DNA from: a virus
Reading direction: 5' to 3' (one strand)
IMG/VR virus record: IMGVR_UViG_3300037585_001447
Coordinates: 1-30,843 of that record
DNA length: 30,843 nucleotides
The notes beneath the pieces were generated by a model, which ran no database searches, had not been told where the DNA came from, and saw only the letters and a program-made list of their open reading frames with translations. Of this stretch, positions 2,801-30,749 are shown piece by piece (the stretch's first letter is position 1; every line of letters begins with the position of its first letter). A program made the position numbers and the translations under genes.

Positions 2801-2974
2801 TTATCCATTTAACTTTTGTGTATTGTCTTGAATCTCAAAATTACAAGAATGCTCTATCTCTGCGTTTATTTTTTCGACAGAGTCGCCAGTTATCCTAGAT
2901 GTATAGTGTAATAACGCTACATACATATAAGGTATTTTCTGTGCTTCTATGTCTTGTGCTTCTTCTTCTGTCAT
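2801..2974 (-). CDS. Small acidic protein, 57 residues
   Basis: This short protein begins MTEEEAQDIEAQKIPYMYVA and continues with a likely helical segment (LLHYTSRITGDSVEKINAEI). It has one cysteine and no membrane segment. The function is unknown. Its ATG overlaps the stop of the last oxygenase gene in the ATGA pattern, the same coupling used within the oxygenase cassette, so it is probably translated together with it. It could be an accessory to the oxygenases, but only position suggests this. Confidence 0.6.
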   Translation of the reverse strand: MTEEEAQDIEAQKIPYMYVALLHYTSRITGDSVEKINAEIEHSCNFEIQDNTQKLNG

Positions 2975-3561
2975 GATTTATAGAAATTGTACGCTAAACT
3001 GATGCGTTGTTCATCAATATTGTGTTGTTGTACCATATGTTCAATATAACTTCTAAAAATAATTACGCTACCTTCAACTGGAGTAATATGTGCAATCTGT
3101 GTGTTGTCAAATGTTGCTTCAGTTACTTGTGGCGATAACATATCCTGGTAAGGATTTTTGAAATAAAATCTTGCAGAATCAAGTGGTGCTTTTAGGTAGT
3201 AGACTGCACTAATAATACTATTTGCGTGCGTATGGAATTCTTGACTGTCACCTTTGTTGTATATGTTTAGCCATCCATCTGTAGGGTTTTTTTGTATTTT
3301 AGATGAATCTAGTTTAGTGTCGTTACAGTATTCATGCACTGCTTCAGATACGAATTTATTTATACTTTTAAAACTTTTATCTGTACATACGCTGTGAGTT
3401 GAATGCGTATTGTACGTTCTGAATAACCAATTGTTGCCACCACTAGGTACTTGATTTTGGATTGTGTTGCATTTTTTAATTAATGTATCAGCCACGTCAT
3501 GATGGTTTGGGTTTGTCTTAGCCCCTATTACACTAGCAAAAAATCTGTCGTAACCAATCAT
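2971..3561 (-). CDS. 2-oxoglutarate/Fe(II) dioxygenase 5 (HxH type)
   Basis: This 196-residue protein has the double-stranded beta-helix signature of 2OG-Fe(II) oxygenases: FHTHANSIISAVYYLKAP (metal motif H110-x-H112), then GSVIIFRSYIEHMV (distal H175) and R186 in QRISLAYNF, which would hold 2-oxoglutarate. The pattern best fits the PF13759-like group (SxYYL then FRS..EH..), in which enzymes hydroxylate an unknown substrate using O2, Fe(II) and 2-oxoglutarate. The usual HxD metal pair reads HxH here. The N-terminal 90 residues are specific to this protein. Its ATG shares a base with the preceding stop (TAATG). It is the last of five such genes in one operon. Confidence 0.8.
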   Translation of the reverse strand: MIGYDRFFASVIGAKTNPNHHDVADTLIKKCNTIQNQVPSGGNNWLFRTYNTHSTHSVCTDKSFKSINKFVSEAVHEYCNDTKLDSSKIQKNPTDGWLNIYNKGDSQEFHTHANSIISAVYYLKAPLDSARFYFKNPYQDMLSPQVTEATFDNTQIAHITPVEGSVIIFRSYIEHMVQQHNIDEQRISLAYNFYKS

Positions 3562-4073
3562 TATGAAAAATAGTTTAAGTTTAAAACATATCTAAATGGT
3601 TTGTCAGTATGTGTAGTTCCAGTGTGTTGTAATGAGTTAGGAAATATAACTACTGAGTTAGCTTCACATTCTATTTCTTTTACTTTGTTGTTTTCTTTTA
3701 TCAATGTTTTACCATCTGTGTCATTAAGATAATAAATAGCTGTTGTTAAATTAGCGTGTGGCTGTTTTTTCTCGTTGCCGATATCTATGTGATAACCACC
3801 TAGTATACGGTTTTCATTTTGTTGGATGTTACAATTTAGTCTTAATCTATGGAATGCTACTATTTGTAATTCTCTAAACAGTGGTTTAAATACATCAAAC
3901 AAAGTAGACGTGACATTGTGATCTAAGTAAATAGTGTGTGAAAACTGATAATCTTTTGTATTGCTATCTAGCACTTGACCTTTGTACCAACAAACGTCAT
4001 CAGCCTGCACAACAGACAATATATTTTTGTGTGTTGACTCTGTTAAGAAATTTTTTATAACCTTAATCGTCAT
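3561..4073 (-). CDS. 2-oxoglutarate/Fe(II) dioxygenase 4 (HxD type)
   Basis: This 170-residue protein is close to a minimal oxygenase core. The canonical facial triad is visible: H95-x-D97 in GGYHIDIGNE and the distal H150 in VVIFPNSLQHTG. R161 in KPFRYVLNLNYF is the likely 2-oxoglutarate anchor. Between them PHANLTTAIYYLNDTDGKTL is a typical core beta-strand region and resembles the prolyl-4-hydroxylase-like group, such as PF13640. All catalytic residues are present, so it should be active. The substrate is unknown. Its start overlaps the end of the upstream oxygenase gene by 11 bases. Confidence 0.82.
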   Translation of the reverse strand: MTIKVIKNFLTESTHKNILSVVQADDVCWYKGQVLDSNTKDYQFSHTIYLDHNVTSTLFDVFKPLFRELQIVAFHRLRLNCNIQQNENRILGGYHIDIGNEKKQPHANLTTAIYYLNDTDGKTLIKENNKVKEIECEANSVVIFPNSLQHTGTTHTDKPFRYVLNLNYFS

Positions 4074-4548
4074 TGGTAGTTACTTTAACAGCAATAGTAA
4101 ATCTATGTTTGTTTCTAAACGTCGTTGCTTTGTGTACTAAATTTGCATCAAAACCAACTAACCTGTTTGGGATAGGTAGTATGCCTTTAATCTCATTGTC
4201 AACTATTATTTGTGTTTCACCACCATCGTCTAGTTGCCAACTATCGTTTATGTAATACAAAAATGTAATACCTTTTTTACCATCAGTATGAAAATAAGGT
4301 TTTTCTGACGGTGCGAAGCAATTAACATACATTCTGTTAATACTTACATTTTGTAAATTAGTAAAAACTTCTTGTATCCTTTTCTTAAATAATTTGTAGA
4401 TACGTTCAGTTTTGTTTATTTCGTGAACCATGCCTGTTGGTGGTGTTGTATCTGTGTCTGTTTCTCCATATGTGTAAGAAGATGTAAGGCAGTATTTGTA
4501 GACATATTCTGCATCTTTTGTTTCTAAAAACTTGTCTACAACTTTCAT
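4063..4548 (-). CDS. 2-oxoglutarate/Fe(II) dioxygenase 3 (HxD type)
   Basis: This 161-residue protein is a compact oxygenase. The metal motif is H87-x-D89 in PYFHTDGKKG, the distal ligand H139 in FDANLVHKAT, and R149 in NKHRFTIAVK is the probable 2-oxoglutarate residue. The core string ITFLYYINDSWQLDDGGETQ is characteristic of P4H-like phage and cyanophage oxygenases, with the GGET turn found in that group. It is distinct in sequence from gene 4, so the pair is not a fresh duplication. It overlaps the upstream gene by four bases (ATGA) and the downstream one by 11. Confidence 0.85.
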   Translation of the reverse strand: MKVVDKFLETKDAEYVYKYCLTSSYTYGETDTDTTPPTGMVHEINKTERIYKLFKKRIQEVFTNLQNVSINRMYVNCFAPSEKPYFHTDGKKGITFLYYINDSWQLDDGGETQIIVDNEIKGILPIPNRLVGFDANLVHKATTFRNKHRFTIAVKVTTNDD

Positions 4549-5153
4549 ATTAGCTTTATCCTCATATGACTGTCTGCTGTAGGCACTCCAACTGTACCAA
4601 AAGGCATAACATTAAAAGCTAATGAGTTTCTTTTGTGCTCACTTTTATTTTTATTGACAATGTGCCACATCTTACTTGGAAACAACAAAATTAAACCGTT
4701 TACAGGCTGTACTGTGTAAGAATTACCATTCAAGACGTTGTATTCTGTGCATGGCACTTTAATTTGTTCATCACGAAAATCTTCAAATGTAATGCTTCCG
4801 CTATCTTCATTAACATTTAAGTACAACACACCACTTATAAAGCTGTTTTGATGTTGGTGGTATTGTGACTGTTCCATACTGTCTGTTTCTGTAAACCAAG
4901 ACGTGGTAATTTTAAAATCAGCGTCGTATTTCATTATGTTGTTTGCATAATTATATATTTCAGCATTAATAATACTTTTAAGGTGTTTGTGCTGTTCTTC
5001 TTCTAATACATACAATGAAGAATCGCTAGGTCTTGTTTCTTTAGGTTTGTTTATTTCTGCTTTTAACGGTTCACGCATATTTTTTACAATAGCTTGTGTG
5101 TCTAAGTCTAAGTTATTACTGTATAACACATCGCCAAATATAACGTCAATCAT
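4545..5153 (-). CDS. 2-oxoglutarate/Fe(II) dioxygenase 2 (HxH type)
   Basis: This 202-residue protein has H99-x-H101 in QYHQHQNSFISGVLYLN, a distal H164 in LLFPSKMWHIV and R175 in HKRNSLAFNVMP. SGVLYLN and LLFPS..WH are strong marks of the PF13759-like oxygenases. As in genes 1 and 5, the usual Asp of the metal pair is replaced by His. The N-terminal 90 residues look helical and variable. A short C-terminal extension (about residues 183-202) follows the core. It shares one base with the upstream stop and four bases with the downstream gene, so the cassette is probably translated as a chain. Confidence 0.85.
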   Translation of the reverse strand: MIDVIFGDVLYSNNLDLDTQAIVKNMREPLKAEINKPKETRPSDSSLYVLEEEQHKHLKSIINAEIYNYANNIMKYDADFKITTSWFTETDSMEQSQYHQHQNSFISGVLYLNVNEDSGSITFEDFRDEQIKVPCTEYNVLNGNSYTVQPVNGLILLFPSKMWHIVNKNKSEHKRNSLAFNVMPFGTVGVPTADSHMRIKLI

Positions 5154-5797
5154 TATTTATGTACCCAATCATTACGCTTTAAATAAATATTACCTGCAAC
5201 TGTAATTCTTTCAACGTCTGAAAAAAATGGAGTTACTGAATGGTTTAACCAAGAAGGGAAAATGTAAATATCACCCTCGTCAGGTAAATGCGAAAAACCT
5301 GTTTTATTAAATAACAAGTTTTCGCCATAGTTAAAATCAATTGTTCCTGTACCGTTGTTATTGTGTTTTGCCTTTGTGCGTTCGTTTTCTTCTCTTAGTT
5401 CTTGTGGTATTTTTAAGTAAATGACAAATGACAAATCACCAGTATGATTATGTTGTGGGTTAAATTCTCGGCATTTTGTGTAATTTATCCAAAGCTCAGT
5501 TTTAGTAATTTCAAACGGTTTTTGTATTGCGTCTGCTGTTTCACTCCAATCTTTTTGAAATATGTCTTGGTAGACAGACAACAAAGGTAAAAACTCAGGC
5601 ATAAACCACCCTTCAAAATCTTCAAAAGCGTATTCTTCTTTAATCATGCCTACTAATTTTTCGGTATGTAGTAAGCGTTCTTGTTTAGACTTTTTGCCTT
5701 CTATTAATAATTTGTTTTGGAACGATTTAGATATATGTGTTTTAACAACAAGCGCGCCAAAATAAGGAAACCAATGGTGTCCTTCTTGGACTACCAT
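5153..5797 (-). CDS. 2-oxoglutarate/Fe(II) dioxygenase 1 (HxH type)
   Basis: This 214-residue protein is the first and longest of the cassette. Signature strings are FNPQHNHTGDLSFVIYLKIP (H116-x-H118), then GDIYIFPSWLNHSVTPF with distal H186 and R197 in DVERITVAGNIYL. IFPSWLNHSVTPF is close to the PF13759 pattern. An insert of about 40 residues rich in Glu, Lys, Asn and Gly lies between the metal motif and the distal strand. Its ATG lies inside the end of the zinc-ribbon gene, a seven-base overlap, so expression is tied to that gene. The substrate is unknown; see findings for virion and host-surface hypotheses. Confidence 0.85.
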   Translation of the reverse strand: MVVQEGHHWFPYFGALVVKTHISKSFQNKLLIEGKKSKQERLLHTEKLVGMIKEEYAFEDFEGWFMPEFLPLLSVYQDIFQKDWSETADAIQKPFEITKTELWINYTKCREFNPQHNHTGDLSFVIYLKIPQELREENERTKAKHNNNGTGTIDFNYGENLLFNKTGFSHLPDEGDIYIFPSWLNHSVTPFFSDVERITVAGNIYLKRNDWVHK

Positions 5798-19904: not shown

Positions 19905-19920
19905 AGTTCAGCCCTGTACT
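19905..19920 (-). repeat. Dispersed palindromic element, copy 1
   Basis: AGTTCAG-CC-CTGTACT, a two-base-spacer copy with the T-run (A-tract on the minus strand) to its right. It lies 24 bases upstream of the first early gene's ATG and is the exact reverse complement of copy 4 (21616-21631). It may be an operator or phage-specific promoter part. Confidence 0.75.
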
Positions 19921-19943
19921 TTTTAACTAACAATGGAGATATT

Positions 19944-20429
19944 ATGAATATTAAATCTTTTCAAAATGTGCATAACAATGCAATGGGACTGGGAGAAGCA
20001 CAAGGTAAACTTAATCAGCAACTAGCAGATATTTACCGCGACAAGAAAGTACAGGCTGACTACCTTACTTGGGTAACCGCTACTCACAGAGATGACAGTC
20101 AAGGTAAGATAGTGCAAGACAAGTTCGCTGAACAAGTCAAAGCGGTGCAAAAAAATATCAACCTTGCTAACACTCAGAAGTTAATGCTTAAGGGTGAGAT
20201 AACGAAAGAACCACTTACTCAAAAGGTTAGACTGTTAAGAGCCAATAAGCCATTAATGAATCAAGGCTTTGTAACTGAGCAAGATATTAAGGATAAGAAG
20301 TACTTTTTTATCACTACTGATATCACACCAGCGACAGAGAAAACTTGTGATGAAAATGTAACGGCTTTTATGTCTAGACATGGTTATACCAAAAAGCAGA
20401 TGTTAAAGGCTTTACAAAATCAGAAGTAA
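19944..20429 (+). CDS. First early rightward gene, unknown function
   Basis: This 161-residue soluble protein begins MNIKSFQNVHNNAMGLGEAQ. It is mostly helical and basic in the middle, with a C-terminal half containing KKYFFITTDITPATEKTCDE and HGYTKKQMLKALQNQK. No signal peptide, membrane helix or known family was recognised. It is a single-gene unit: it has its own ribosome site (GGAG), a palindromic element just upstream and an intrinsic terminator just after its stop. Standing alone and first from the control region suggests an early regulator or host-takeover protein. That role is inference from position only. Confidence 0.75.
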   Translation: MNIKSFQNVHNNAMGLGEAQGKLNQQLADIYRDKKVQADYLTWVTATHRDDSQGKIVQDKFAEQVKAVQKNINLANTQKLMLKGEITKEPLTQKVRLLRANKPLMNQGFVTEQDIKDKKYFFITTDITPATEKTCDENVTAFMSRHGYTKKQMLKALQNQK

Positions 20430-20443
20430 AGTAATAAGCGATT

Positions 20444-20462
20444 ACCCCCTTACGGGGGTTTT
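20444..20462 (+). terminator. Intrinsic terminator after first early gene
   Basis: ACCCCC-TTAC-GGGGGT is a perfect six-base stem with a four-base loop, followed by TTTT. It starts 15 bases after the stop codon and should end the transcript of the single early gene before the repeat block. Confidence 0.85.
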
Positions 20463-20494
20463 CGTGTGTCTGGTCGTAAATTATGAAATGGATT

Positions 20495-20509
20495 AGTTCA
20501 GTCTGTACT
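20495..20509 (-). repeat. Dispersed palindromic element, copy 2
   Basis: AGTTCAG-T-CTGTACT, one-base spacer, followed by a T-run on the plus strand (so the A-tract is on the minus strand). It lies between the terminator of the first early gene and the 8-base repeat block. Confidence 0.75.
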
Positions 20510-20572
20510 TTTTTCGTAGGCTCGACTCATAGGCTAATGCTCGCAAATCGACAGTTTGTCCACCATTTGCCT

Positions 20573-20842
20573 AATAAGACGCCGAATAAGACAATATATG
20601 GCACTTTGTCTTATTACAAAAAGCCTTATGCAGATAGGGTTGCAAGTGCCTATTAAGACAATAAGACAATAAGACAATATATAAAAATGAATAGTAAAAG
20701 TAATACATTTAGTAGTAGTTATGACGAAAAAGCACTATCCAAAAGTGCCAACTTGCCATCTCTCTACGCAATTGTCTTTTTGTCTTATTGCAGAGTAAGT
20801 CGTTGTTATTTATTTAATAAGCCAAAATCAAATTGTCTTATT
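20573..20842. repeat. Array of ATAAGACA / TGTCTTAT repeats
   Basis: The gene-free block 20430-20900 contains many copies of an 8-base word. Direct copies AATAAGAC lie at 20573, 20585, 20660 and 20668, with ATTAAGAC at 20652; 20653-20676 is three tandem units. Inverted copies GTCTTATT lie at 20608, 20782 and 20835, with a variant GTCTTTTT at 20774. Several direct copies continue into AATATAT. Clustered short repeats beside AT-rich DNA, upstream of a replication operon, recall iterons of a replication origin or a cluster of regulator sites. The 70-codon frame at 20687-20899 crossing it is probably not a gene. Confidence 0.75.
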
Positions 20843-20860
20843 GCAATGACTTATTACAAA

Positions 20861-20876
20861 AGTTCAGTACTGTACT
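20861..20876 (-). repeat. Dispersed palindromic element, copy 3
   Basis: AGTTCAG-TA-CTGTACT, two-base spacer, followed by a run of T on the plus strand. It lies 24 bases before the start of the zinc-binding protein gene, matching copy 1's distance to its downstream gene, so it may control the start of the long rightward operon. Confidence 0.75.
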
Positions 20877-20900
20877 TTTTTTATTATGAGGTTAATTAAC

Positions 20901-21095
20901 ATGTCCACCAAATGCACTTTATGTAACGCCGAGGTTCACCCTCTAAGAATTCAAGCAGGTATTTATACTTGCATACATTGTGGCGACAAACTAGCCAAAC
21001 AACGCACACATTGTATCGTGCCAATGCACAAATCAAATTACATTGTCGTTACTGACCGCGACGACCTTGTACGCATCAACAACAAAAGCGGTTAA
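20901..21095 (+). CDS. Small C4 zinc-ribbon protein, DksA/TraR-like
   Basis: This 64-residue protein has C5-x2-C8 and C24-x2-C27 with the string YTCIHCGDKLAKQR, then VPMHKSNYIVVTDRDDLVRI. The second CxxC and following basic helix resemble the DksA/TraR-type zinc finger seen in many small phage proteins. The PMHKSNYI..TD tail is a pattern I associate with phage homologues. It may bind RNA polymerase or nucleic acid, but this is not shown. I chose the ATG at 20901, with GAGG eight bases upstream; an upstream ATG at 20886 has no signal. It is the first gene of the long operon. Confidence 0.72.
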   Translation: MSTKCTLCNAEVHPLRIQAGIYTCIHCGDKLAKQRTHCIVPMHKSNYIVVTDRDDLVRINNKSG

Positions 21096-21112
21096 TCACA
21101 TAGGAGTAGATT

Positions 21113-21268
21113 ATGAAATCAAGATATAACTTACAAGTAGTAAGAGTAGATATGACTACAACCCATATGATGATAAAGATATTCAAGTATCTAATGCTTG
21201 CAATCATCACAGGGTGTTGTATTCAGTCTGCTTTGATACTAACCATGATAGCCGAGAGGTTACTGTAA
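21113..21268 (+). CDS. Small membrane protein, 51 residues
   Basis: This short protein begins MKSRYNLQVVRVDMTTTHMM and has one hydrophobic segment (about residues 26-46, LMLAIITGCCIQSALIL). A strong ribosome site (AGGAG) lies before the ATG. Its TAA stop overlaps the next ATG (TAATG), so the two genes are likely coupled. A single-span early phage membrane protein could act in superinfection exclusion or host interference, but nothing in the sequence decides this. Confidence 0.65.
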   Translation: MKSRYNLQVVRVDMTTTHMMIKIFKYLMLAIITGCCIQSALILTMIAERLL

Positions 21269-21657
21269 TGGATATTATCACACACGGCAAGATGCAAGAG
21301 TATACCTCGACTCATCAGCACTTCGATACTGCAACTGGTACTGTGTTTACCAAAGACAAAGGCGACTTGTATGTTGTCTATTCTTACGGCGAACACTTTC
21401 CAATGTATGTATACGATAAGTTTGTTGAGTTGTGGTTCGCCAATTACGACAAATACTCACCAACTACATCAAAGCACCAAACTTTGGCTCGACCAGATGT
21501 TGAAGAACTCAATATGCTTAGTACAGAAGAATTATCTATGCTAATCCGTCTAGGTGGGTACAGAGAGTTTTGCTCTGATAGATGTGTAACAAACATGGCA
21601 ATGTACTATCCAAAAAGTACAGGGCTGAACTTTAATCATAACCAAAGGAGGGCATAA
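21268..21657 (+). CDS. Unknown early protein, 129 residues
   Basis: The protein begins MDIITHGKMQEYTSTHQHFD and has a YVVYSYGEHFPMYVYDKFVE segment typical of compact alpha/beta folds, then a helical part (EELNMLSTEELSMLIRLGGY) and two cysteines near FCSDRC. No family was recognised. The ATG at 21268 overlaps the previous stop and has GAGAGG upstream. An in-frame GTG at 21214 would extend it inside the previous gene and is less likely. The palindromic element copy 4 lies inside its last 15 codons, and its stop overlaps the AAA gene's ATG. Confidence 0.65.
   Translation: MDIITHGKMQEYTSTHQHFDTATGTVFTKDKGDLYVVYSYGEHFPMYVYDKFVELWFANYDKYSPTTSKHQTLARPDVEELNMLSTEELSMLIRLGGYREFCSDRCVTNMAMYYPKSTGLNFNHNQRRA
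21616..21631 (+). repeat. Dispersed palindromic element, copy 4
   Basis: AGTACAG-GG-CTGAACT preceded by an A-run, so its A-tract is on the plus strand, opposite to copies 1-3. It is inside the end of a coding region (read as K-S-T-G-L-N) and 26 bases before the AAA ATPase start. Confidence 0.75.
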
Positions 21658-22670
21658 TGCCATCAATCAACGAAGTCGTCAGCGTAGCGACTCAAATCTT
21701 ACGCAAATCACCAACGGCAGTTCCATTCTTCAAGGGTAAGCCAGGCATGGGTAAATCAGATGCTTGTGTGCAGATAGGTCGCAACCTTGACATACCCGAG
21801 GATAGGATACTAATCGTTCATGTTAACAACCATGATGTCGTAGACTTTACAGGTGTTCCATCTGTAACTGACGGGCAGACACGATTCAATCCCACCGAGA
21901 TGTTTTACAAGTTTCGCGAGGGAACTGGTGCAGGTCTGATAGTGTTAGAGGAGTTACCGCAATCGTCGACACACCATCAAACATGGGCGGCAGGCTTTCT
22001 GCTAGAGCGTACGACACCAACATTCAAACTGGATAAAGATGTTCGCTTCCTTGTTACAGGTAACAGGGTAGAAGATAGGGCAGGTGCGAAACAACTGCTT
22101 ACACACTTATCCAATAGAATGTATGAGTTCGAGATGGAAACATCACTCGACGACTGGTGCGAGTGGGCAATGGATAATGGTGTTGACTCTCGAGGTATTG
22201 CGTTCTTACGCTTACGACCTCAACTGCTCAACGACTTTGACGCTAATCGCTCAGTCAATCCAACGCAACGAGCGTGGACTCAGTTGTTCCTAGAAGTACC
22301 ACAAGACTTGCCGACTAATCACTACATGATGGCGTGTACTGCCAAAGTGGGTGAGGGTGCTGCTGCCGAGTGGTGTGCCGCGAGAGACCTTATGGATAAG
22401 ATGCCTAGCGTCGATTCGATTAGGCTCGCACCTGACAAAGTAGAGATACCAACCGAGCCTGCCGTTATGTTCGCAGTAGCTACGGCGTTGTCTATGACTA
22501 CTGTGCCTGATGCGTTCGAGCGTGATATGACTTACATCAGCCGTATGAACAAAGAGTTTCAGATGGTATATGTAACTGATGCTCTGCGACTTCACCCGAA
22601 GTTACAACAAACCAAACCTTTCGTCGATTGGGCGATTGCTAACAAAGACATCTTTATGGGAGGAAACTAA
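21657..22670 (+). CDS. MoxR-type AAA+ ATPase
   Basis: This 337-residue protein has Walker A GKPGMGKS (residues 27-34), Walker B LIVLEELPQ (94-102, with Glu in place of the usual first Asp), sensor 1 FLVTGNR (N136) and an arginine finger in LSNRMYEFEM (R154). This is the MoxR/CbbQ/NorQ/CobS type of AAA ATPase, which remodels or activates client proteins with a VWA-domain partner. Such a partner is encoded four genes downstream (24356-25519). The C-terminal 150 residues are helical and specific. Its ATG overlaps the previous stop (TAATG). The client protein is unknown. Confidence 0.85.
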   Translation: MPSINEVVSVATQILRKSPTAVPFFKGKPGMGKSDACVQIGRNLDIPEDRILIVHVNNHDVVDFTGVPSVTDGQTRFNPTEMFYKFREGTGAGLIVLEELPQSSTHHQTWAAGFLLERTTPTFKLDKDVRFLVTGNRVEDRAGAKQLLTHLSNRMYEFEMETSLDDWCEWAMDNGVDSRGIAFLRLRPQLLNDFDANRSVNPTQRAWTQLFLEVPQDLPTNHYMMACTAKVGEGAAAEWCAARDLMDKMPSVDSIRLAPDKVEIPTEPAVMFAVATALSMTTVPDAFERDMTYISRMNKEFQMVYVTDALRLHPKLQQTKPFVDWAIANKDIFMGGN

Positions 22671-22671
22671 G

Positions 22672-22923
22672 ATGAGCAAAAGTAAATCACACAACGGAAT
22701 GTTGTTATCCAACAAATCCGACTTGCCTTTGAAGTGGCATACAAGTTTTATAAAAATGCACTGCGAAAAGGCTATCAAGGAAACTGACGATACTCTTACT
22801 GCTTACCAATGGGGAGAAGTCCTCAAATGGATAAATGGTCTTGAGGAAAACAGACTAAAGAGCCGTGAGTATTACAACAAGTACAACGCACGCCAGCGTG
22901 CAAAACAAAGGAGTAAATCATGA
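22672..22923 (+). CDS. Small basic protein in AAA/VWA module
   Basis: This 83-residue protein begins MSKSKSHNGMLLSNKSDLPL. It has a helical middle (FIKMHCEKAIKETDDTLTAY) with a Trp pair (QWGEVLKWINGLEENRLKSR) and a basic end (NARQRAKQRSKS). The function is unknown, but the basic tail could bind nucleic acid. I chose the ATG at 22672 because GGAGG lies upstream and it follows the AAA stop by one base. A longer frame reading back to 22579 would run inside the AAA gene. It overlaps the next gene by four bases (ATGA). Confidence 0.65.
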   Translation: MSKSKSHNGMLLSNKSDLPLKWHTSFIKMHCEKAIKETDDTLTAYQWGEVLKWINGLEENRLKSREYYNKYNARQRAKQRSKS

Positions 22924-23927
22924 ATAATATATTACAAAATGCAATAAACAATGCAGTAGAGTCCGAGGAAAAAGTACAGACTGTACTTTCTACACCAATA
23001 ACACCACCGAGTGGGCAAGGTGTACCTCACGACACATCACCTGCGATACCGACACCTCTGAAAGTCAAGGGGTTAGATGAGAAAGCAGTACTGATTAGTG
23101 TCAAGCGTTACATGTACTCACCATACAAGCTAGACCAAGAGGAAAGCAAACAGTATGGTGCAGGGAATGTTAACAAACATCTGTTCGAGGGTAGGAATAA
23201 CCTCGTTAAGTCTACAATCAGTAAGTTCACAGAAGTGTATACATATGTGAAAGACAATACTGTGCCGTGGACTACTGGCGTTGACATGCTTAACATAAAC
23301 CACTACATGGAGTTCAATGCAGGTTTGCGTCAGCGTGTAGATGATGCCCACCGAGCAGTCGACACGCTCTGCTTGTCTTGGGAAGATGAAGTCAAAGATG
23401 ACCTCGACAGGTTAAGTCAGATAGCCATTGCCAAAGGGAAACCAAACCTTGCGAACGCGAGCGACTATCCCGATGTCGATGAACTCAGAGCGAAGTTCGG
23501 CATTGAGATACGATACATGCCAGTACCAACGACAGGCGACTTTCGTGTAGACATATCCGATGACGACAAAGCGTCATTGCAACAACAACTTGATGATGCG
23601 GGTGTCAACGCGAACAAGCATGTGATTAAGTCTATGCTAGAGCCAATGGAACGAGCGATTGCTAAGCTGTCAGTACCAATCGGCAACGACGGTTCTGTGT
23701 TTCGCGACACTCTCGTTGACAATCTTGTCGAAGTTACCGAGCGTATGAACAAAATCAATCTAAGCGACGATGCAGTCATTCAAGATAGTATCAACGGCTT
23801 ACGCGATTTGATTAGTACATATGCTAGTGAGCAAGGTAAAGACTTACTGCGTAGCAATCAGACATCTCGTGAGAAAGCAGTTACTGACATAGACTCCCTG
23901 TGCAAGCAGATGTCGGGGTTGGTGTAG
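22920..23927 (+). CDS. Unknown AAA/VWA module partner, DUF3150-like
   Basis: This 335-residue protein lies between the MoxR ATPase and the VWA protein. The first 55 residues are polar and low in structure (Pro-rich TPITPPSGQGVPHDTSPAI), followed by SVKRYMYSPYKLDQEESKQY and long helices (about 100-160, 220-320). Proteins of the DUF3150 type are known next to AAA and VWA genes in plasmids and phages; this has a similar size, helical plan and place, but I cannot confirm the family. It may bridge ATPase and client. Element copy 5, a perfect 19-base palindrome, lies in its 18th to 24th codons. Confidence 0.6.
   Translation: MNNILQNAINNAVESEEKVQTVLSTPITPPSGQGVPHDTSPAIPTPLKVKGLDEKAVLISVKRYMYSPYKLDQEESKQYGAGNVNKHLFEGRNNLVKSTISKFTEVYTYVKDNTVPWTTGVDMLNINHYMEFNAGLRQRVDDAHRAVDTLCLSWEDEVKDDLDRLSQIAIAKGKPNLANASDYPDVDELRAKFGIEIRYMPVPTTGDFRVDISDDDKASLQQQLDDAGVNANKHVIKSMLEPMERAIAKLSVPIGNDGSVFRDTLVDNLVEVTERMNKINLSDDAVIQDSINGLRDLISTYASEQGKDLLRSNQTSREKAVTDIDSLCKQMSGLV
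22973..22987 (+). repeat. Dispersed palindromic element, copy 5 (perfect)
   Basis: AGTACAG-A-CTGTACT; with flanks the perfect palindrome spans 22971-22989. It is preceded by GAGGAAA (A-tract on plus) and lies inside a gene, read as E-K-V-Q-T-V-L-S. Copies 6 and 7 are read in the same frame. Confidence 0.8.
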
Positions 23928-23928
23928 C

Positions 23929-24384
23929 ATGGGATATCGTAGCGACACAAGTATCCTTATCTATGGCGACGACAAAGATGTTGTTGCCTTTAAGGCAGGC
24001 GAGCGATTGAAAGGGTATCCAAAAGGTATGTTATACAACCCACTTGACAAACCCGAAGATGGACATCTGTGTGATGAGCATTTTGTTTGGCATACAGATG
24101 ATGGCGACACCATGCTTGAGTACAACTTCTTTGGTGTTAAGTGGTATGAAACATACCCCGAGATAGCCTACTGGGAAGAACTCAAGAGTGTGTGGGATGA
24201 CGCTTATGGGAAAACCTCGCTACAACTGGAGTTCGTACGACTAGGTGAGCAGGCTGATGATATCGTTACTGAGTACTTCGGTAGCGATTGTCAGTACTAC
24301 CTCAATGTCGAGCGAACAATTTATAAATCAATGGGAATAAAGGAGGAAGTACAAAATGAGTACCTCAAACAATACAACAGTTAA
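23929..24384 (+). CDS. Conserved phage protein starting MGYRSD
   Basis: This 151-residue protein begins MGYRSDTSILIYGDDKDVVA, an N-terminus shared by a group of small phage proteins of unknown function (MGYRSDV-type). It is acidic and rich in Trp and Tyr (HFVWHTDDGDTMLEYNFFGV; WYETYPEIAYWEELKSVWDD), suggesting a compact alpha/beta fold. No catalytic motif is evident. It starts one base after the previous stop, and its end overlaps the VWA gene by 29 bases, so it belongs to the module at least in expression. Confidence 0.7.
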   Translation: MGYRSDTSILIYGDDKDVVAFKAGERLKGYPKGMLYNPLDKPEDGHLCDEHFVWHTDDGDTMLEYNFFGVKWYETYPEIAYWEELKSVWDDAYGKTSLQLEFVRLGEQADDIVTEYFGSDCQYYLNVERTIYKSMGIKEEVQNEYLKQYNS

Positions 24385-25519
24385 CCTCGACGAGGTTCAA
24401 CGCAAAGTCAGTAAAGCGAAAGCCTTGCTGATACTAGACCATCCGTTCTTCGGTACTGCCGTATCTCGGCGACCGATACAGTATGGTGATGAAGTGCCAA
24501 CGGCAGGAATGTCAGCGACAGGTCAGATAATGCTTAACCCCGAGTGGGTAGAGCCTTTGACTGTCAAAGAGATAATGTTCCTGTTGGCTCACGAGGCTAT
24601 GCACTACATGTTATCTCATGCGTTGCGACGACAACACCGCGACCATAGAGCATGGAATGTAGCTTGTGACAAAGTCATTAATGACACACTCATTGATGCC
24701 AAAGTCGGTACATTTATTGACGGCGGTGTCACACATAAAGATGCTAGGTTCGGTGCGTCCGAGCAGTTCTATGATGAGAACGACGATGACATGGGTGAGG
24801 GCGGTATCGGTGAAGATGTCGGCGACATAGTTGACGAAAATGGTCAGCCATTAGACGACGCAACTGTGCAACAGTTACAGGCTCAAGCTAAGATAGAGGC
24901 TATACAGTCTGCAAAACTAGCCAAGCAAAGTGGTAAGTTGCCCGAGTCTATCGAGCGAATAGTTGAAGAAATGGTTAATGTAGTAACTCCGTGGCACGAG
25001 AAACTGGAACGATACATGTCTGCCAAAGTCAGAGATGGCTACTCATGGAATAGACCTAATCGTCGTTTCGTCGGACAGGGTATGTACCTCCCAGGCTACG
25101 ACTACATACCACGCATGGGTGAAGTTGTTATTGCAGTAGACACCTCGGGCAGTCTTGACTCCAGAGAGTTAGCATTGTTTCAAGGGCATATCAATCGTAT
25201 CGTCGATACCTGTACACCAGAAAAGATAACTGTGTTGTACTGCGACTATGCCATAGGTGGTACTACTGAGTATACACCCGACGACTTACCGATAGTACTC
25301 AAACCAGTAGGTGGTGGCGGTACTTCGTTCAAGCCTGTGTTCAAGTGGCTCGACTCCTATGACGGCGAGGTAGAGTGTCTTATCTACTTTACCGACGGCT
25401 GGGGCGACCAAGACGAGCTAGACCAGTTATCCATCACAGGCAAGGTAGATACTGTGTGGCTAACTACTGATAAAGAGGACTTCCCGTTTGGCGAAGTCAT
25501 AACATTTAACGAGGAGTAA
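24356..25519 (+). CDS. Metallopeptidase-like/VWA protein (DUF2201-type)
   Basis: This 387-residue protein has two domains. Residues about 15-125 form a metallopeptidase-like domain with FLLAHEAMHYMLSHALRR (HExxH at H79-H83) and RAWNVACDKVINDTLID (D105 a possible third ligand). Residues about 255-385 form a VWA domain with a metal-ion site D262-T-S264-G-S266, GGGGTSF (T323) and YFTDGWGD (D347). An acidic, flexible linker joins them. The layout matches DUF2201 proteins that work with MoxR-type ATPases. Whether the HExxH domain cuts peptides is unknown. GGAGG precedes the ATG. Confidence 0.85.
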   Translation: MSTSNNTTVNLDEVQRKVSKAKALLILDHPFFGTAVSRRPIQYGDEVPTAGMSATGQIMLNPEWVEPLTVKEIMFLLAHEAMHYMLSHALRRQHRDHRAWNVACDKVINDTLIDAKVGTFIDGGVTHKDARFGASEQFYDENDDDMGEGGIGEDVGDIVDENGQPLDDATVQQLQAQAKIEAIQSAKLAKQSGKLPESIERIVEEMVNVVTPWHEKLERYMSAKVRDGYSWNRPNRRFVGQGMYLPGYDYIPRMGEVVIAVDTSGSLDSRELALFQGHINRIVDTCTPEKITVLYCDYAIGGTTEYTPDDLPIVLKPVGGGGTSFKPVFKWLDSYDGEVECLIYFTDGWGDQDELDQLSITGKVDTVWLTTDKEDFPFGEVITFNEE

Positions 25520-25522
25520 ATT

Positions 25523-25762
25523 ATGTCAAAAGTAAAAGACGAAGAAATTGCAAGACTAAAGGAAGTCATTGCAGGGTTAACTGCTGAGCGGATACTACCA
25601 CCCGAACCCGAGGAGGAGTATGTGCAAGAGTACACTTGCGATGACTGTGCTTGGCCAGACGGACAACTACGCAGTGATGTAAGTTGTGAGTGTGGTATGA
25701 ATGATGATGAAGAAACACCCAAAGGTTTTTACCATTGGGCAGATGAGGAGGAGTACAAGTGA
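25523..25762 (+). CDS. Small acidic cysteine-containing protein
   Basis: This 79-residue protein begins MSKVKDEEIARLKEVIAGLT, a short coiled coil, and then has TCDDCAWPDG and SCECGMNDDEE, four cysteines that could bind one zinc. It is very acidic overall. The function is unknown. It lies three bases after the VWA stop, and its TGA overlaps the next gene's GTG start. Its place suggests it is co-made with the VWA protein. Confidence 0.65.
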   Translation: MSKVKDEEIARLKEVIAGLTAERILPPEPEEEYVQEYTCDDCAWPDGQLRSDVSCECGMNDDEETPKGFYHWADEEEYK

Positions 25763-26490
25763 AAGAACTAAAATTTGATAATGATAACAAGAGGTGGGAT
25801 AGGTACGGTGCTTTCCACCACACAGATGGTGGGCTTGTACACTTTGATACGGGCGAGGTCATGGTTAGAGCGAACATGGAATCGTACTATCGTACTGTGT
25901 ACTCCGAATTCGGAATACAGTTAGTGTCTACGACTGAGAAAGAATGTCCTAAATTGTACTTCGACAGGGAATGTACTGAACTTGTGACTAAGGCATGGCT
26001 CACACAAGATGGTCAACAAGAGTTGGCTATCGACCTCGAGCAGAACTGTGCCGTAGCGTTTAGATATCACAACTGGTATCGGGGCAAACGCGAGGCTCTA
26101 CCTGCTCTAGGCTCTCATGTAGAGCAAGCAAGTGCGTACTGGTCGGGTGCTAATCGTATGCCTGTGCCACTAGCTAAGATACAAGTACAAGCACCTAACC
26201 CCGATTACAGGAAAAAAGTTCAGCCTGTACTAAATGATGAAGTGCAACCTGTTGTTACTGCAATGTGGCGACTGTCTGATGCAAGCAAAGGTTATCAGTA
26301 CAGTACCAGTAAGTTTAGAGCCAAAGAAACATGGCTCGACTCATCGGGGCAGGAAATTATCGACGACATAATGACAGGTCTAAGTGACTACAACAAAACT
26401 GAGGCTATGCGTTCGATAGCACAACACGGGTTTCGTCTACCCCGAGCAACGACTGAAGTAGACTTTCTATATATAAAAGGAGGTGCGTAG
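25759..26490 (+). CDS. Unknown protein, 243 residues
   Basis: This 243-residue protein starts at a GTG (25759) overlapping the previous stop, with GAGGAG upstream. It begins MKELKFDNDNKRWDRYGAFH. It has a beta-rich first half with FDTGEVMVRANMESYYRTVY and ACNW-like patches (FRYHNWYRGKREALPALGSH), then a helical end. No known family or catalytic motif was recognised. Element copy 6 lies around codons 153-158. A weaker second copy follows 24 bases on (26241-26255), giving the protein repeat KVQPVL / EVQPVV. Confidence 0.65.
   Translation: MKELKFDNDNKRWDRYGAFHHTDGGLVHFDTGEVMVRANMESYYRTVYSEFGIQLVSTTEKECPKLYFDRECTELVTKAWLTQDGQQELAIDLEQNCAVAFRYHNWYRGKREALPALGSHVEQASAYWSGANRMPVPLAKIQVQAPNPDYRKKVQPVLNDEVQPVVTAMWRLSDASKGYQYSTSKFRAKETWLDSSGQEIIDDIMTGLSDYNKTEAMRSIAQHGFRLPRATTEVDFLYIKGGA
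26217..26231 (+). repeat. Dispersed palindromic element, copy 6
   Basis: AGTTCAG-C-CTGTACT preceded by an A-run on the plus strand, inside a gene and read K-K-V-Q-P-V-L-N. A degenerate neighbour, AGTGCAA-C-CTGTTGT, starts exactly 24 bases downstream at 26241. Confidence 0.7.
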
Positions 26491-27089
26491 TGCATCAGAA
26501 TAATTTTAGTGAAATAGTAGGTATGGCTCACAACAAAGCCACAAAGCAAGTACGAGTTGAAATGGACTTCGACACAAGTAAGTGGTCGGGGCGTATGAAG
26601 AACATCGTATGTAGAGCAATCGACACAGGTGTCGCAGACTGTGGTTGGGAAACAGGTTGGTGGATTAAACACTTCCTAGCACACCACGGGTTAGGTACTG
26701 AAAGGTTGTGGGGTTGGCAGTCTGACCTACCTCTAAATGTAATCAAAGAGGACATGGTTGAAGAGGCAGTTGCGTATGTAGCCGCGATGATTAAAGTCAA
26801 AGACTATAAACTATTAGACTACAACGAGCGAAACTGGATAGAAAGACTAACTGAGAAAGGAGTTAGTAGTTTGACTAAACAAGAGTTAGATGCCATGAAC
26901 TGGCAACAGAGAAACAATCAAGGTGTGATAGACATACCTGTGCCTAACTTTAGCAAGGCTGATAGACAGGTGTTTATCAAGAAATACCTAAAGCCAATGG
27001 ACGAGCAACAGAAGATAAAACGAGCCGAACTAATAAATTCTATAAGAAGTGGTTCATTGTTATCTATTTCGTATATAATTAATGATTAA
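26490..27089 (+). CDS. Unknown protein, 199 residues
   Basis: This 199-residue protein starts at GTG 26490, one base into the previous stop, with GGAGGTG upstream. It begins MHQNNFSEIVGMAHNKATKQ. The middle is Trp-rich (CGWETGWWIKHFLAHHGLGT; RLWGWQSDLPLN), and the C-terminal half is helical and charged. No family was recognised and there is no signal peptide or membrane segment. It lies in the early operon between the VWA module and the DNA polymerase. Confidence 0.65.
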   Translation: MHQNNFSEIVGMAHNKATKQVRVEMDFDTSKWSGRMKNIVCRAIDTGVADCGWETGWWIKHFLAHHGLGTERLWGWQSDLPLNVIKEDMVEEAVAYVAAMIKVKDYKLLDYNERNWIERLTEKGVSSLTKQELDAMNWQQRNNQGVIDIPVPNFSKADRQVFIKKYLKPMDEQQKIKRAELINSIRSGSLLSISYIIND

Positions 27090-27100
27090 GGAGAGCAAAT

Positions 27101-27769
27101 ATGTATGTAAGAAAAACACAAACCCTCATCACAGATATTGAGCATGAGGTCTATAAGATGCAACAGAGTGCTATTTCTAAACTCACTAGTGAGAACAATG
27201 TAGAGATAGGCACACCACTCCATGCAGAAATTAAAACTGCCATAGAAAATACTCTGTGGCAATTAGCACCCGACCTCAAAGATAAGATGCCTAAAGAATG
27301 GTTGTCCGATGAAACGCATGTAATGGTTGATTTTCCATCAGACGAACATAGAACTGTACGCTACAACTTTGGGTCGCAAACTGGTGACGAACTCAAGATA
27401 CCACCACACTTTAGGCGTTGGGATGATATCCACATATCACAAAAGTACTGGACACCCTTAATACAAGAGTGGTTAAGCAGTCAACACAATGCAGAAGTTG
27501 AGCGACAGAAGATTGTTGATAGTTACCATACTATCAGTTCGCAATTGACTTCGTTCATGGCAAAGCATGCGTCACTTAACACGGCACTCAAAGAGATGCC
27601 CGAGTTAGAACTTTATGTACCTAATAGTTACATTGAGAAAGTGAACAAAAAAGAAGAACGCGTCAAAGCGACACCATCCGTACCAACTACACACGACGAC
27701 ACAGAAGTTGATGTTGAAGCGTTGACGAGGGCGGCGATTGCTCATCGAGTAAGTACGGCGAGCGAATAA
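27101..27769 (+). CDS. Unknown helical protein, 222 residues
   Basis: This 222-residue protein begins MYVRKTQTLITDIEHEVYKM. Its first 140 residues alternate helix and short strands (ENTLWQLAPDLKDKMPKEWL; PPHFRRWDDIHISQKYWTPL), followed by a helical region and a charged tail. No motif was recognised. A clear AAGGAGAG site lies before the ATG. The next gene starts one base after its stop. Confidence 0.65.
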   Translation: MYVRKTQTLITDIEHEVYKMQQSAISKLTSENNVEIGTPLHAEIKTAIENTLWQLAPDLKDKMPKEWLSDETHVMVDFPSDEHRTVRYNFGSQTGDELKIPPHFRRWDDIHISQKYWTPLIQEWLSSQHNAEVERQKIVDSYHTISSQLTSFMAKHASLNTALKEMPELELYVPNSYIEKVNKKEERVKATPSVPTTHDDTEVDVEALTRAAIAHRVSTASE

Positions 27770-27770
27770 T

Positions 27771-27971
27771 ATGTCTATGCACGGGCGAGAATGGAAGTGC
27801 CTAGATGAGGTTGAGATGGTAGATTGTGCAATGGAAGTTAAGAAGTTGTACAATCTATACCTCGACGCTGACTTTGAAGATGATGTAACACTAGCCTTAT
27901 ACTATAAGTCTAAGATGCAACATTTTCAAAAGTTAGTGGACGACGGCGTAGAGTTTCAGCCTAATTTTTAA
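27771..27971 (+). CDS. Small acidic protein, 66 residues
   Basis: This 66-residue protein begins MSMHGREWKCLDEVEMVDCA and is mostly helical (MEVKKLYNLYLDADFEDDVT, then LALYYKSKMQHFQKLVDDGV). It has two cysteines and no membrane segment. The function is unknown. It sits between an unknown gene and the winged-helix gene in the operon. Confidence 0.6.
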   Translation: MSMHGREWKCLDEVEMVDCAMEVKKLYNLYLDADFEDDVTLALYYKSKMQHFQKLVDDGVEFQPNF

Positions 27972-27984
27972 CTAAGGAGCGATT

Positions 27985-28284
27985 ATGACTATTGATGAAC
28001 TTAAAAAAGGTTGGGCAAAGGTTACTATCCTACGAGATTTAAAGGATAGGACTGAGGAAGTTAGCCAAACCGAACTGAGTGAAACTGAATTTGATGTGTT
28101 ATGTTTTATTGCACATCAGAGCGGTACTGCTACTATAACTGCAATGGTGACGCACCCTTACTTCAAGGGTGTTTCATTGTCTACTATAAAGAGGGCGGTA
28201 CTTTTATTAACCAAAGAAACACTTATACAGGCAACAGAAGGTAGCGATAGGCGAGAAAGATACCTTTCTGTGGTGGAGGTGTAA
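27985..28284 (+). CDS. Candidate winged-helix DNA-binding protein
   Basis: This 99-residue protein resembles MarR-type winged-helix regulators. After a short N-terminal helix, residues 31-50 (LSETEFDVLCFIAHQSGTAT) and 51-80 (helix-turn-helix with GVSLSTIKRAVLLLTKETLI) are followed by a beta-wing (SDRRERYLSVVEV, DRR-x-R typical of the wing). The wing and recognition helix positions fit. It is the only DNA-binding regulator candidate in the window, so it might bind the dispersed palindromes, but nothing shows this. AAGGAG precedes the ATG. Confidence 0.65.
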   Translation: MTIDELKKGWAKVTILRDLKDRTEEVSQTELSETEFDVLCFIAHQSGTATITAMVTHPYFKGVSLSTIKRAVLLLTKETLIQATEGSDRRERYLSVVEV

Positions 28285-28285
28285 C

Positions 28286-28528
28286 ATGCACAAGAAACTT
28301 TACTATCTACTAATGACGGCAGGTTCTTTCGCTATGACAATTATGCTAGGCATATGCGTTGTGTGGGTACTTGCAATCGCAGGGTGTTCGACGAACTACG
28401 AGGACAACCCGTTACTGATACCACCCAACACACTACTTAACAGTACACCCGACAAGGGTATTTGTTGTATGGCTGATGAGGACTTTCCATCGGGTTGCGA
28501 TGGTTTTTTAACAATTTGTGAGGAGTAA
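28286..28528 (+). CDS. Possible lipoprotein of the replication operon
   Basis: This 80-residue protein has a long hydrophobic N-terminal segment (residues 5-32) ending in a lipobox-like I31-A32-G33-C34. A 46-residue polar, acidic domain with four cysteines follows (ICCMA, SGCDG, TICEE). If processed, C34 would be lipid-modified at the membrane; otherwise the segment is a plain anchor. Phage lipoproteins can be spanins or superinfection-exclusion proteins, but this one sits in an early operon, unlike a spanin. GGAGG precedes the ATG. Confidence 0.6.
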   Translation: MHKKLYYLLMTAGSFAMTIMLGICVVWVLAIAGCSTNYEDNPLLIPPNTLLNSTPDKGICCMADEDFPSGCDGFLTICEE

Positions 28529-28530
28529 GT

Positions 28531-28836
28531 ATGTCAAAAAAAGAGACACTAGCCGATAAGGCTAAGAAAGCAGGACTACCCGTACAGGTAGTTTATAACC
28601 GCAAGCACGCAGGTTGGTCAGAGAAGAAGGCACTATCTGTACCTTTGCGAGGTTACAAGAAAAAAGAGATATCCTATAAGGTAGAGCCTAAGAAGGTGCA
28701 AACCTCGGCAGCGAAGCCTAAAAAACCTACTGTGCCTTTACCTGTGGAAAAATATGAAGCACCTAAGAGTAATACATTTATATATCTATCAGTTGTATTA
28801 GTCATTTTAGTAATCTTTGCAATTATGTCCACATGA
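28531..28836 (+). CDS. Basic protein with C-terminal membrane anchor
   Basis: This 101-residue protein has a Lys-rich hydrophilic part (MSKKETLADKAKKAGLPVQV, then a Lys- and Pro-rich stretch to about residue 75) and one C-terminal hydrophobic segment (about 82-99, FIYLSVVLVILVIFAIM). This makes it a tail-anchored membrane protein with a basic cytoplasmic domain. Such a protein could bring DNA or the replication machinery to the membrane, an inference only. It overlaps the polymerase gene by four bases (ATGA). Confidence 0.65.
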   Translation: MSKKETLADKAKKAGLPVQVVYNRKHAGWSEKKALSVPLRGYKKKEISYKVEPKKVQTSAAKPKKPTVPLPVEKYEAPKSNTFIYLSVVLVILVIFAIMST

Positions 28837-30749
28837 AGATATGTACAGTTGACTTGGAGACTTTTTGGGATGTTGGTCATTCGCTTACCAAGATGTCTCC
28901 AATCGCGTACTGCATGCACCCCGACACAGAGATAATCAGTTGTGCGTTTAAGTTCGGCAACCAAGAAACCGAAGTAATCTTTGGTGAGGATGAAGTCAAG
29001 CAATACTGTGATTCCGTTGATTGGTCACAGTATTGGGTTGTCGGACACAACCTGTCGGGATTCGATTCCATGATACTATCATGGCGACTCAACATCAAAC
29101 CCCTACTATGGGGTTGTACTCTTGCAATGGCAAGACCTATCCACGCAAAAGATGTAGGCTTATCGTTAGCCAAGCTAGTAACTCATTACGGACTTGGTGT
29201 CAAAGATAACTTCGCTCTACTACAAACCAAAGGCAAACGACTATCCGATTTCACAGAGCAAGAGATTGCAGACATGGGTGTATACAACAAAGCTGATGTC
29301 GACCAATGCTATCAGTTGTTGCTACGACTCATACCACAGACAAAAAAAGACGAGGTAAAACTAATCGACATGACAATTCGCTCACTTGTTGAGCCTACAT
29401 TCGCATGTGATATGGATTTACTACATAACACCTTAGAGGAAGAAAGCATACGCAAACGCGAACTACTGCTTGACGCCGCCGACAAGATGCTCGACGAACC
29501 TCTACTAACGGATGAAGAAAAAGTACAGTCTGTACTAAAACTTCTATCATCTGCCCCCAAGTTTGCTAAGTTTTTAGAAAGTATTGAAGTTGAAGTACCT
29601 AAAAAAATTTCGCCGACAACAGGTAAAGAAATACCTGCATTAGCAAAGACTGACGAGGAGTTCATTGCACTACAAGAGCATGATAATCCTCTGGTCGCAA
29701 CGGCGGCAAACGCAAGACTAGATGCAAAGAGTACATTGTTGCAGACTAGAATCAAGGCTTTCATCTCGGCGGCAGACTCACACCCACAAAAAAAAGTACC
29801 GATTCCGTTAAAGTATTACGGTGCTGATACTACTGGTCGTTGGTCGGGTTGGGCATATAACCCACAGAATTTACCACGGGTACACCCTAAGTTTCCCAAG
29901 CCATCCGATGCACTACGCAAATCCCTAGTTGCACCCAAAGGATATAAGGTCGTAGTTGCAGACTTATCGGGTATTGAACTAAGAGTTAACCACTTCTTAT
30001 GGAAAGTACCATCTAGCATGGAACTATTCGAGAAAGACAGAGAGAACGCAGACTTATATAAAGACTTTGCAAGTAAACTCTATGAGGTATATGAGAGCGA
30101 AGTAACTAAAGAACAACGACAAGTTGGTAAGGTTGCACATTTAGGTCTAGGCTTTGGTGCAGGCTCCGTTACCTTTCAGAAAGTGGCCAAGCTTATGGGT
30201 GGCGTCGATATAGACCTGGACGAATCGAAAGACATCGTCGATGCGTGGCGAATGGCATACCCCGAGATAACTATCGGGTGGCGGACATGTCACAAGGCAC
30301 TATCAACTATCATTAGAGGGGCGACAGGTGGTGCAATAGACCCGTGGGGAATGGTATATCCTACACCCGAAGGACTTCAAACACCTAAAGGGATAATCAG
30401 ATACCCTAACCTACGCACAGAAATGAACGAAGAAACTAACAGAACTGAGTTTGTTTATGGGCAAGGCAGAAATAAGGCAAGGATATATGCAGGAAAAATT
30501 GACGAGAACATTGTTCAGCACCTTGCGAGGTGCGTCATTGCAGATAATGCTTTAGAAGTACAACGCCGTTTGGGACTAATACCTGCACTTATGGTACACG
30601 ACGAACTCGTCTATGTAGTTCCTGGAGATCAAGCTCAAACGACGCTTGACATCGTCCAAGAGATAATGCGTACGCCCCCTGTTTGGTGGCCAGAACTCCT
30701 TACTTGGAGTGAGGGTGACATAGCAGATACCTACGGCGACGCCAAATAA
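28833..30749 (+). CDS. polA: Family A DNA polymerase with 3'-5' exonuclease
   Basis: This 638-residue replicative polymerase has exonuclease motifs D7-L-E9, GHNLSGFD (N73, D78) and YNKADVDQ (Y151, D155), and polymerase motif A VVVADLSGIELR (D377). Motif B is RQVGKVAHLGLGFG (R429, K433) and motif C is MVHDELVYV (H589, D590, E591). Catalytic residues for both activities are present. It lacks a 5'-nuclease domain, as is usual for phage polymerases. In the O-helix the residue equivalent to E. coli Phe762 is L437, and F441 takes the place of Tyr766. Palindromic element copy 7 lies inside it at K230-L235. It overlaps the tail-anchored gene. Confidence 0.93.
   Translation: MKICTVDLETFWDVGHSLTKMSPIAYCMHPDTEIISCAFKFGNQETEVIFGEDEVKQYCDSVDWSQYWVVGHNLSGFDSMILSWRLNIKPLLWGCTLAMARPIHAKDVGLSLAKLVTHYGLGVKDNFALLQTKGKRLSDFTEQEIADMGVYNKADVDQCYQLLLRLIPQTKKDEVKLIDMTIRSLVEPTFACDMDLLHNTLEEESIRKRELLLDAADKMLDEPLLTDEEKVQSVLKLLSSAPKFAKFLESIEVEVPKKISPTTGKEIPALAKTDEEFIALQEHDNPLVATAANARLDAKSTLLQTRIKAFISAADSHPQKKVPIPLKYYGADTTGRWSGWAYNPQNLPRVHPKFPKPSDALRKSLVAPKGYKVVVADLSGIELRVNHFLWKVPSSMELFEKDRENADLYKDFASKLYEVYESEVTKEQRQVGKVAHLGLGFGAGSVTFQKVAKLMGGVDIDLDESKDIVDAWRMAYPEITIGWRTCHKALSTIIRGATGGAIDPWGMVYPTPEGLQTPKGIIRYPNLRTEMNEETNRTEFVYGQGRNKARIYAGKIDENIVQHLARCVIADNALEVQRRLGLIPALMVHDELVYVVPGDQAQTTLDIVQEIMRTPPVWWPELLTWSEGDIADTYGDAK
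29522..29536 (+). repeat. Dispersed palindromic element, copy 7
   Basis: AGTACAG-T-CTGTACT, a perfect palindrome with a one-base centre, preceded by GAAGAAA (A-tract on plus). It lies inside the DNA polymerase gene in the likely thumb region and is read E-K-V-Q-S-V-L-K, the same frame as copies 5 and 6. Confidence 0.8.

Follow-up and report, generated by a model that had tools for sequence, protein, structure and literature searches.

Which factor reads a palindromic element that recurs along the early half of a phage genome, and what would its dispersed copies do there? The question was raised by an IMG/VR virus record (IMGVR_UViG_3300037585_001447), which was analysed over its entire length of 30,843 nucleotides; this whole stretch is called the window below. 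The structural genes of the window (terminase, portal and capsid) run leftward, the replication genes (MoxR-like ATPase and DNA polymerase) run rightward, and the base skew switches near 20 kb. Five leftward open reading frames (ORFs) form a run at 2971-5797, and at least some of them resemble 2-oxoglutarate/Fe(II) oxygenases by eye. Named phages are distant, with 41% terminase identity to Pseudomonas phage Rollin and 39% capsid identity to Rhizobium phage RHph_TM3_14A, and a terminase scan of bacterial genomes returned one distant prophage-like locus only. Relatives were collected by MoxR and terminase searches, which provided more than 100 viral loci; individual loci are designated by L numbers.

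Dispersed palindromes in the early operon

The initial annotation of the window had described seven palindromes in the rightward half, three intergenic and four inside genes, at a frequency far above chance, and this description was upheld. All seven copies match AGTWCAG-N(1-2)-CTGWACT exactly and start at 19905, 20495, 20861, 21616, 22973, 26217 and 29522, with a centre of one base in four copies and two bases in the other three. A pattern search of the 30,843-base record allowing one mismatch revealed no site beyond these seven. Dinucleotide-preserving shuffles yielded a mean of 0.55 sites (one-base centre) and 0.57 sites (two-base centre) at up to two mismatches, compared with seven real copies at zero mismatches. 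Every copy lies within the rightward early operon, and the leftward late half contains none.

No strand is assigned to any copy. Copy 1 (AGTTCAGCCCTGTACT, 19905..19920) is located 24 bp upstream of the start of the first rightward gene (gene 1) and is proposed as an autoregulatory operator; copy 2 (AGTTCAGTCTGTACT, 20495..20509) is located downstream of the gene 1 terminator; and copy 3 (AGTTCAGTACTGTACT, 20861..20876) is located 10 bp upstream of ORF 20886. These three are the intergenic copies, the third falling within the doubtful ORF 20687-20899. The four copies inside ORFs are copy 4 (AGTACAGGGCTGAACT, 21616..21631), near the end of ORF 21214-21657 and 26 bp upstream of the MoxR-like ATPase gene (21657-22670); copy 5 (AGTACAGACTGTACT, 22973..22987), at codon 18 of ORF 22920-23927; copy 6 (AGTTCAGCCTGTACT, 26217..26231), at codon 153 of ORF 25759-26490; and copy 7 (AGTACAGTCTGTACT, 29522..29536), at codon 230 of the DNA polymerase.

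In five of the seven copies an AGTTCAG half is paired with an AGTACAG half, which breaks the symmetry of the window dyad at the W position. An A-tract is present as annotated; its supposed restriction to the AGTACAG side did not hold, since over 79 sites in 15 phages the flanks are symmetric (63% A in the five bases on the left, 53% T in the five on the right). The A-tract therefore gives no polarity, and the suggestion of polar guide sites found no support in an element that is itself symmetric. Mismatches between the arms amount to 53 of 553 pairs, and 12 of them are of the G-U type, for which about one-sixth is expected by chance. Since the arm mismatches lack a clear G-U excess, the palindrome is more likely a symmetric DNA site bound by a dimer than an RNA hairpin. 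A role as RNA hairpin or terminator was rejected on this absence of G-U bias and on the T-T arm mismatch seen in four window copies.

An iteron-like region with AATAAGACAAT repeats lies between copies 2 and 3 (window 20569..20861; L005 6896-7166; L010 4886-5143) and is likely the replication origin. The repeats occur in both orientations at near-fixed spacing, and word and spacing are unchanged in phages with other palindromes. A further recurring word, CACGACTCATAGG/CGACTCATCGG, often stands close behind palindrome copy 2 and resembles part of a phage promoter. It was found at 1920 and 20523 (+) of the window, in weaker form at 26337, 29325 and 30762, and at 4851, 5166, 7699, 11497, 14702 and 15073 of L010. 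A search for a phage RNA polymerase (PF00940) gave no match, and the control genomes gave none either.

Gene 1 and the palindrome types of related phages

Gene 1 (19944..20429, + strand) is located between palindrome copies 1 and 2 at the head of the early (replication) operon, and is followed by an intrinsic terminator (20444..20459, + strand), a terminator of similar form being present behind gene 1 in the relatives. It encodes a hypervariable protein of 161 amino acids, which comparison of the relatives points to as the candidate reader of the palindromes. Gene 1 and its homologues are 26-37% identical by local alignment, compared with mostly 82-100% for the terminase and MoxR of the same phages; homology between the L003 gene 1 and that of the window was not detected by local alignment. 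No relative was found by Pfam, PHROG or PDB sequence search. Structural models of gene 1 are confident (mean pLDDT 88-89) and combine a helical part at the N-terminus with two strands and a pair of helices at the C-terminus. A fold search with two models against solved and viral structures, in which parts of the models were barely tested, returned no confident match (no Foldseek match under E 0.29; VIA Z at most 4.8), which does not prove that the predicted fold is novel. No DNA-binding domain was recognised by Pfam, PHROG, PDB sequence or fold searches, and no classic HTH_3 repressor (PF01381) was detected in the window or the gene-1 records.

The initial annotation had proposed a motif search in relatives as a check. 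Near-identical phages keep the window palindrome; other relatives carry a different one and at first appeared to have none. A search for any inverted repeat revealed that many of these relatives possess another dispersed palindrome, built on the same AAAGT...ACTTT frame with other inner bases. At least 12 palindrome types occur across the relatives, with the half-sites AGTWCAG (window), AGTAYRG, AGTACTG/AGTATGC, AGTATCY, AGTATCA, AGTCCAA, AGTCCAC, AGTACAC, AATATCG, AGTAGCA, AGTATTCTCG and AGTATTATC. Each phage has its own type, apart from a few isolated matches and the overlap of similar types such as those of the window and L003. In nearly all phages with a recognisable gene 1, their own palindrome stands shortly upstream of its start and another behind its terminator. 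General divergence does not account for the change of palindrome, because the nearby iteron-like words are constant across types.

The presence of such palindromes is linked with gene 1. An unbiased search detected a repeated palindrome in 31 of 34 gene-1 loci and in 20 of 110 others (shuffle background, 25 of 110), and at least three copies in 20 of 34 and 2 of 110, respectively; these loci are non-independent, and many of the 110 may not span the gene-1 slot. These palindromes are missing from relatives in which an unrelated gene occupies that slot (Fisher 9e-15, again with non-independent loci). This slot gene belongs to PHROG 1448 (L012 2132-2674, L024 8316-8855, L031 7494-8003, L045 4464-4973), and no locus contains both it and gene 1. 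Kinship between the two genes was rejected (hhalign probability 0.2%). Several PHROG 1448 loci carry TGTTAACA/TGTTTACA palindromes, some of them near TTGACA promoter-like boxes, which perhaps represent a second regulator system.

The palindrome type follows gene 1 and not the phage backbone. Among relatives with terminases 97-100% identical, gene-1 alleles of about 20-32% identity are accompanied by different palindromes. L028 and L062, for example, have the same terminase sequence over the compared part but different palindromes and only 26% identity in gene 1; for L064 and L028 the identities are 99.8% in the terminase and 21% in gene 1. Pairs sharing at least 60% identity in gene 1 differ at 0.39 of seven half-site bases (24 alleles; permutation p = 5e-5), and at 0.27 where their terminases are below 95% identity. 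Conversely, pairs with terminases at least 97% identical and gene 1 below 40% differ by 2.64 bases, compared with 2.66 in unrelated pairs. Palindrome similarity was not associated with the terminase backbone (permutation p = 0.24). A rank Mantel test over all pairs gave a weak correlation (0.09, p = 0.10), as gene-1 identity is saturated near 25% in the majority of pairs. The window and L003 have nearly the same palindrome at only about 20% gene-1 identity, so divergent alleles may read similar sites.

Distant sites and competing explanations

Sites far from gene 1 matter for this association, because operators adjoining gene 1 could travel with it as one cassette. Using seeds taken solely from the palindrome upstream of gene 1, 44 distal sites (more than 150 bp away, at most one mismatch) matched the seed of their own phage in 12 phages, compared with 0.5 in shuffles; the other cross matches mostly joined phages whose palindrome types are identical or alike. 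Phages that combine near-identical backbones with different types are mostly represented by short contigs, so distant sites are seen to switch together when lineages are compared, not within one recent swap.

The distant sites occupy the same places with different sequences across lineages, namely, before MoxR, in ORFs 22920 and 25759 and in the DNA polymerase, and relatives have up to nine sites per phage. In nine other phages, eight of them with another palindrome, the site of ORF 22920 falls within codons 17-31; that of ORF 25759 lies at codon 153 in L003 and 149 in L005; and that of the DNA polymerase lies at codon 230 in L003, 229 in L005 and 232 in L010. The three in-gene copies of the window with a common reading share K-V-Q-x-V-L, which fits an ancestral V-x-x-V-L. 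Sites are also present upstream of the primase gene in the L005 and L017 records, and weaker ones, with two mismatches, in L137 and L138, whose records extend further right. The late regions of L074 and L018 showed no palindrome copies.

Regulator operators, one of several roles that the initial annotation had listed, are the role favoured by these data, and gene 1 can be named as the specific candidate regulator. On the comparative evidence, the palindromes are probably operators of the gene-1 protein, which would act as a repressor, silencing the early operon or forming roadblocks in it. We infer that a dimer of this protein would bind each symmetric site and block the start or the passage of transcription. 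Further operators before or just inside genes would carry this control through the entire early operon, in relatives as far as the primase gene, so that the operon would be shut off late in infection or held silent. Gene 1 is probably self-controlling, because it stands at the operon head with an operator directly upstream and another behind its terminator.

A protein encoded by gene 1 might instead read the palindromes as an activator or timing factor of early and middle transcription. Sites do stand shortly upstream of several gene starts (MoxR, ORF 20886 and gene 1; the primase gene in L005 and L017), and no sigma-70-like promoter was found beside the palindrome copies on the + strand, so unusual promoters may need a helper. 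Activation is nevertheless rather unlikely, since sites deep in genes (codons 153 and 230) and far from the next start suit a roadblock better, and one site lies directly upstream of gene 1 itself. It is less probable again that gene 1 and its sites serve to organise the DNA of the early half for replication, partition or packaging. The iteron-like region is flanked by copies 2 and 3, and dyads rich in A+T are typically found at nucleoid or partition sites. Against this, the sites span the early operon only, close to gene starts and with no clustering at the origin, and the iterons are a separate, unchanged word; a nucleoid-like protein would leave the many sites directly upstream of gene starts unexplained.

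The sites could also be read by another protein, either the MarR-like winged-helix protein at 27985-28284 or a host regulator, which we regard as improbable. The winged-helix protein is small and has homologues in L010 and L017 that match MarR weakly, and MarR proteins bind palindromes. Unlike in MarR-type regulator and operator pairs, its predicted recognition segment SLSTIKRAV does not change with the palindrome, being nearly constant across palindrome types and in the palindrome-free L013, so this protein is an unlikely reader. L017 and L021 have one palindrome in common at only 57% winged-helix identity. A host regulator would not track gene 1 among phages whose terminases are 97-100% identical. 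The least credible reading, to which we give very little weight, is a small mobile palindrome spreading through genomes, another of the roles listed initially. Several near-identical copies at scattered places would suit it, but the same places carry different sequences in different lineages, and in relatives without gene 1 (L031, L042 and L043) the place of the polymerase site is taken by ordinary sequence of the same length, so that this site arose by substitution and not by insertion. Inserted copies of the REP or MITE kind were ruled out on this equal-length coding sequence at DNA polymerase codon 230.

Comparison with known systems and implications

The repressor of Streptomyces phage phiC31 and the C1 repressor of P1 control early genes through dispersed operators, which are inverted repeats in phiC31. 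The likeness to the proposed gene-1 repressor lies in the dispersed operators and, for phiC31, also in the inverted repeats. In the Cluster A mycobacteriophages L5 and Bxb1, the repressor has many sites scattered over the genome, several of them off promoters; regulator and site have diverged together among related phages, and relatives form specificity groups. The L5 stoperators are 13 bp long, asymmetric and aligned with the direction of transcription, and are bound by a repressor monomer that has its HTH at the N-terminus (PMC6550527, PMC9283540). The palindromes resemble these stoperators in being dispersed, including outside promoters (seven in the window, four of them in ORFs; at most nine in relatives), and in a site sequence that co-varies with the regulator among related phages. 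Unlike those of L5, the sites of the window group are symmetric dyads with symmetric A/T flanks and are restricted to the early operon, and gene 1 has no known-family match (Pfam, PHROG, PDB sequence) and no confident fold match. Site symmetry thus places them outside the L5 kind, and by analogy it is plausible that they work like L5 stoperators.

In SP-beta, the repeated element SPBRE occurs at many genome places, is reported as intergenic, and is read by the phage-encoded MrpR, which has a tyrosine-recombinase fold and not a classic repressor fold (PMC10516654). The shared features are a repeated element at many places of a phage genome and one proposed phage-encoded reader. Unlike MrpR, gene 1 is half the size and has no confident fold match, and unlike SPBRE, the palindromes also occur inside genes and vary in sequence by lineage. 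The tyrosine-recombinase fold was not among the fold matches of the two gene-1 models, which does not exclude such a fold.

No PF00589 integrase was found in six gene-1 records with these palindromes, all of them partial; the L010 and L005 records, which run past the primase gene, have none between the primase gene and the late genes. In contrast, PF00589 was found in three relatives without gene 1. Because no integrase was found in the gene-1 records, the purpose of the proposed repressor could be timed shut-off and the exclusion of phages of the same type rather than lysogeny. A phage entering with a matching operator type would be silenced too. Between lineages, allele and operators change in concert, as they do in heteroimmune phages, the exclusion of rivals being the presumed selective force. 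We tentatively propose a modular exclusion system, in which near-identical phages that may not integrate would swap, as a cassette, a small protein that binds DNA and belongs to an undescribed family, its dispersed operators (up to about nine) would re-evolve at fixed places, and at least 12 specificities would exist in one phage group. In the open-access literature, whose coverage is incomplete, no earlier description of such a system was found. These results suggest a swappable switch for gene silencing and virus exclusion that has not been described before in this virus group.

With at least 12 site types and about 20 distinct alleles, a single uncultivated phage group provides a natural series of regulator and operator pairs. 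The system makes it testable how a regulator with many sites shifts its specificity, since every site must follow, and likewise whether heteroimmunity-like diversity occurs in phages without an evident integrase. Such phages could then be sorted into predicted exclusion groups by sequence alone.
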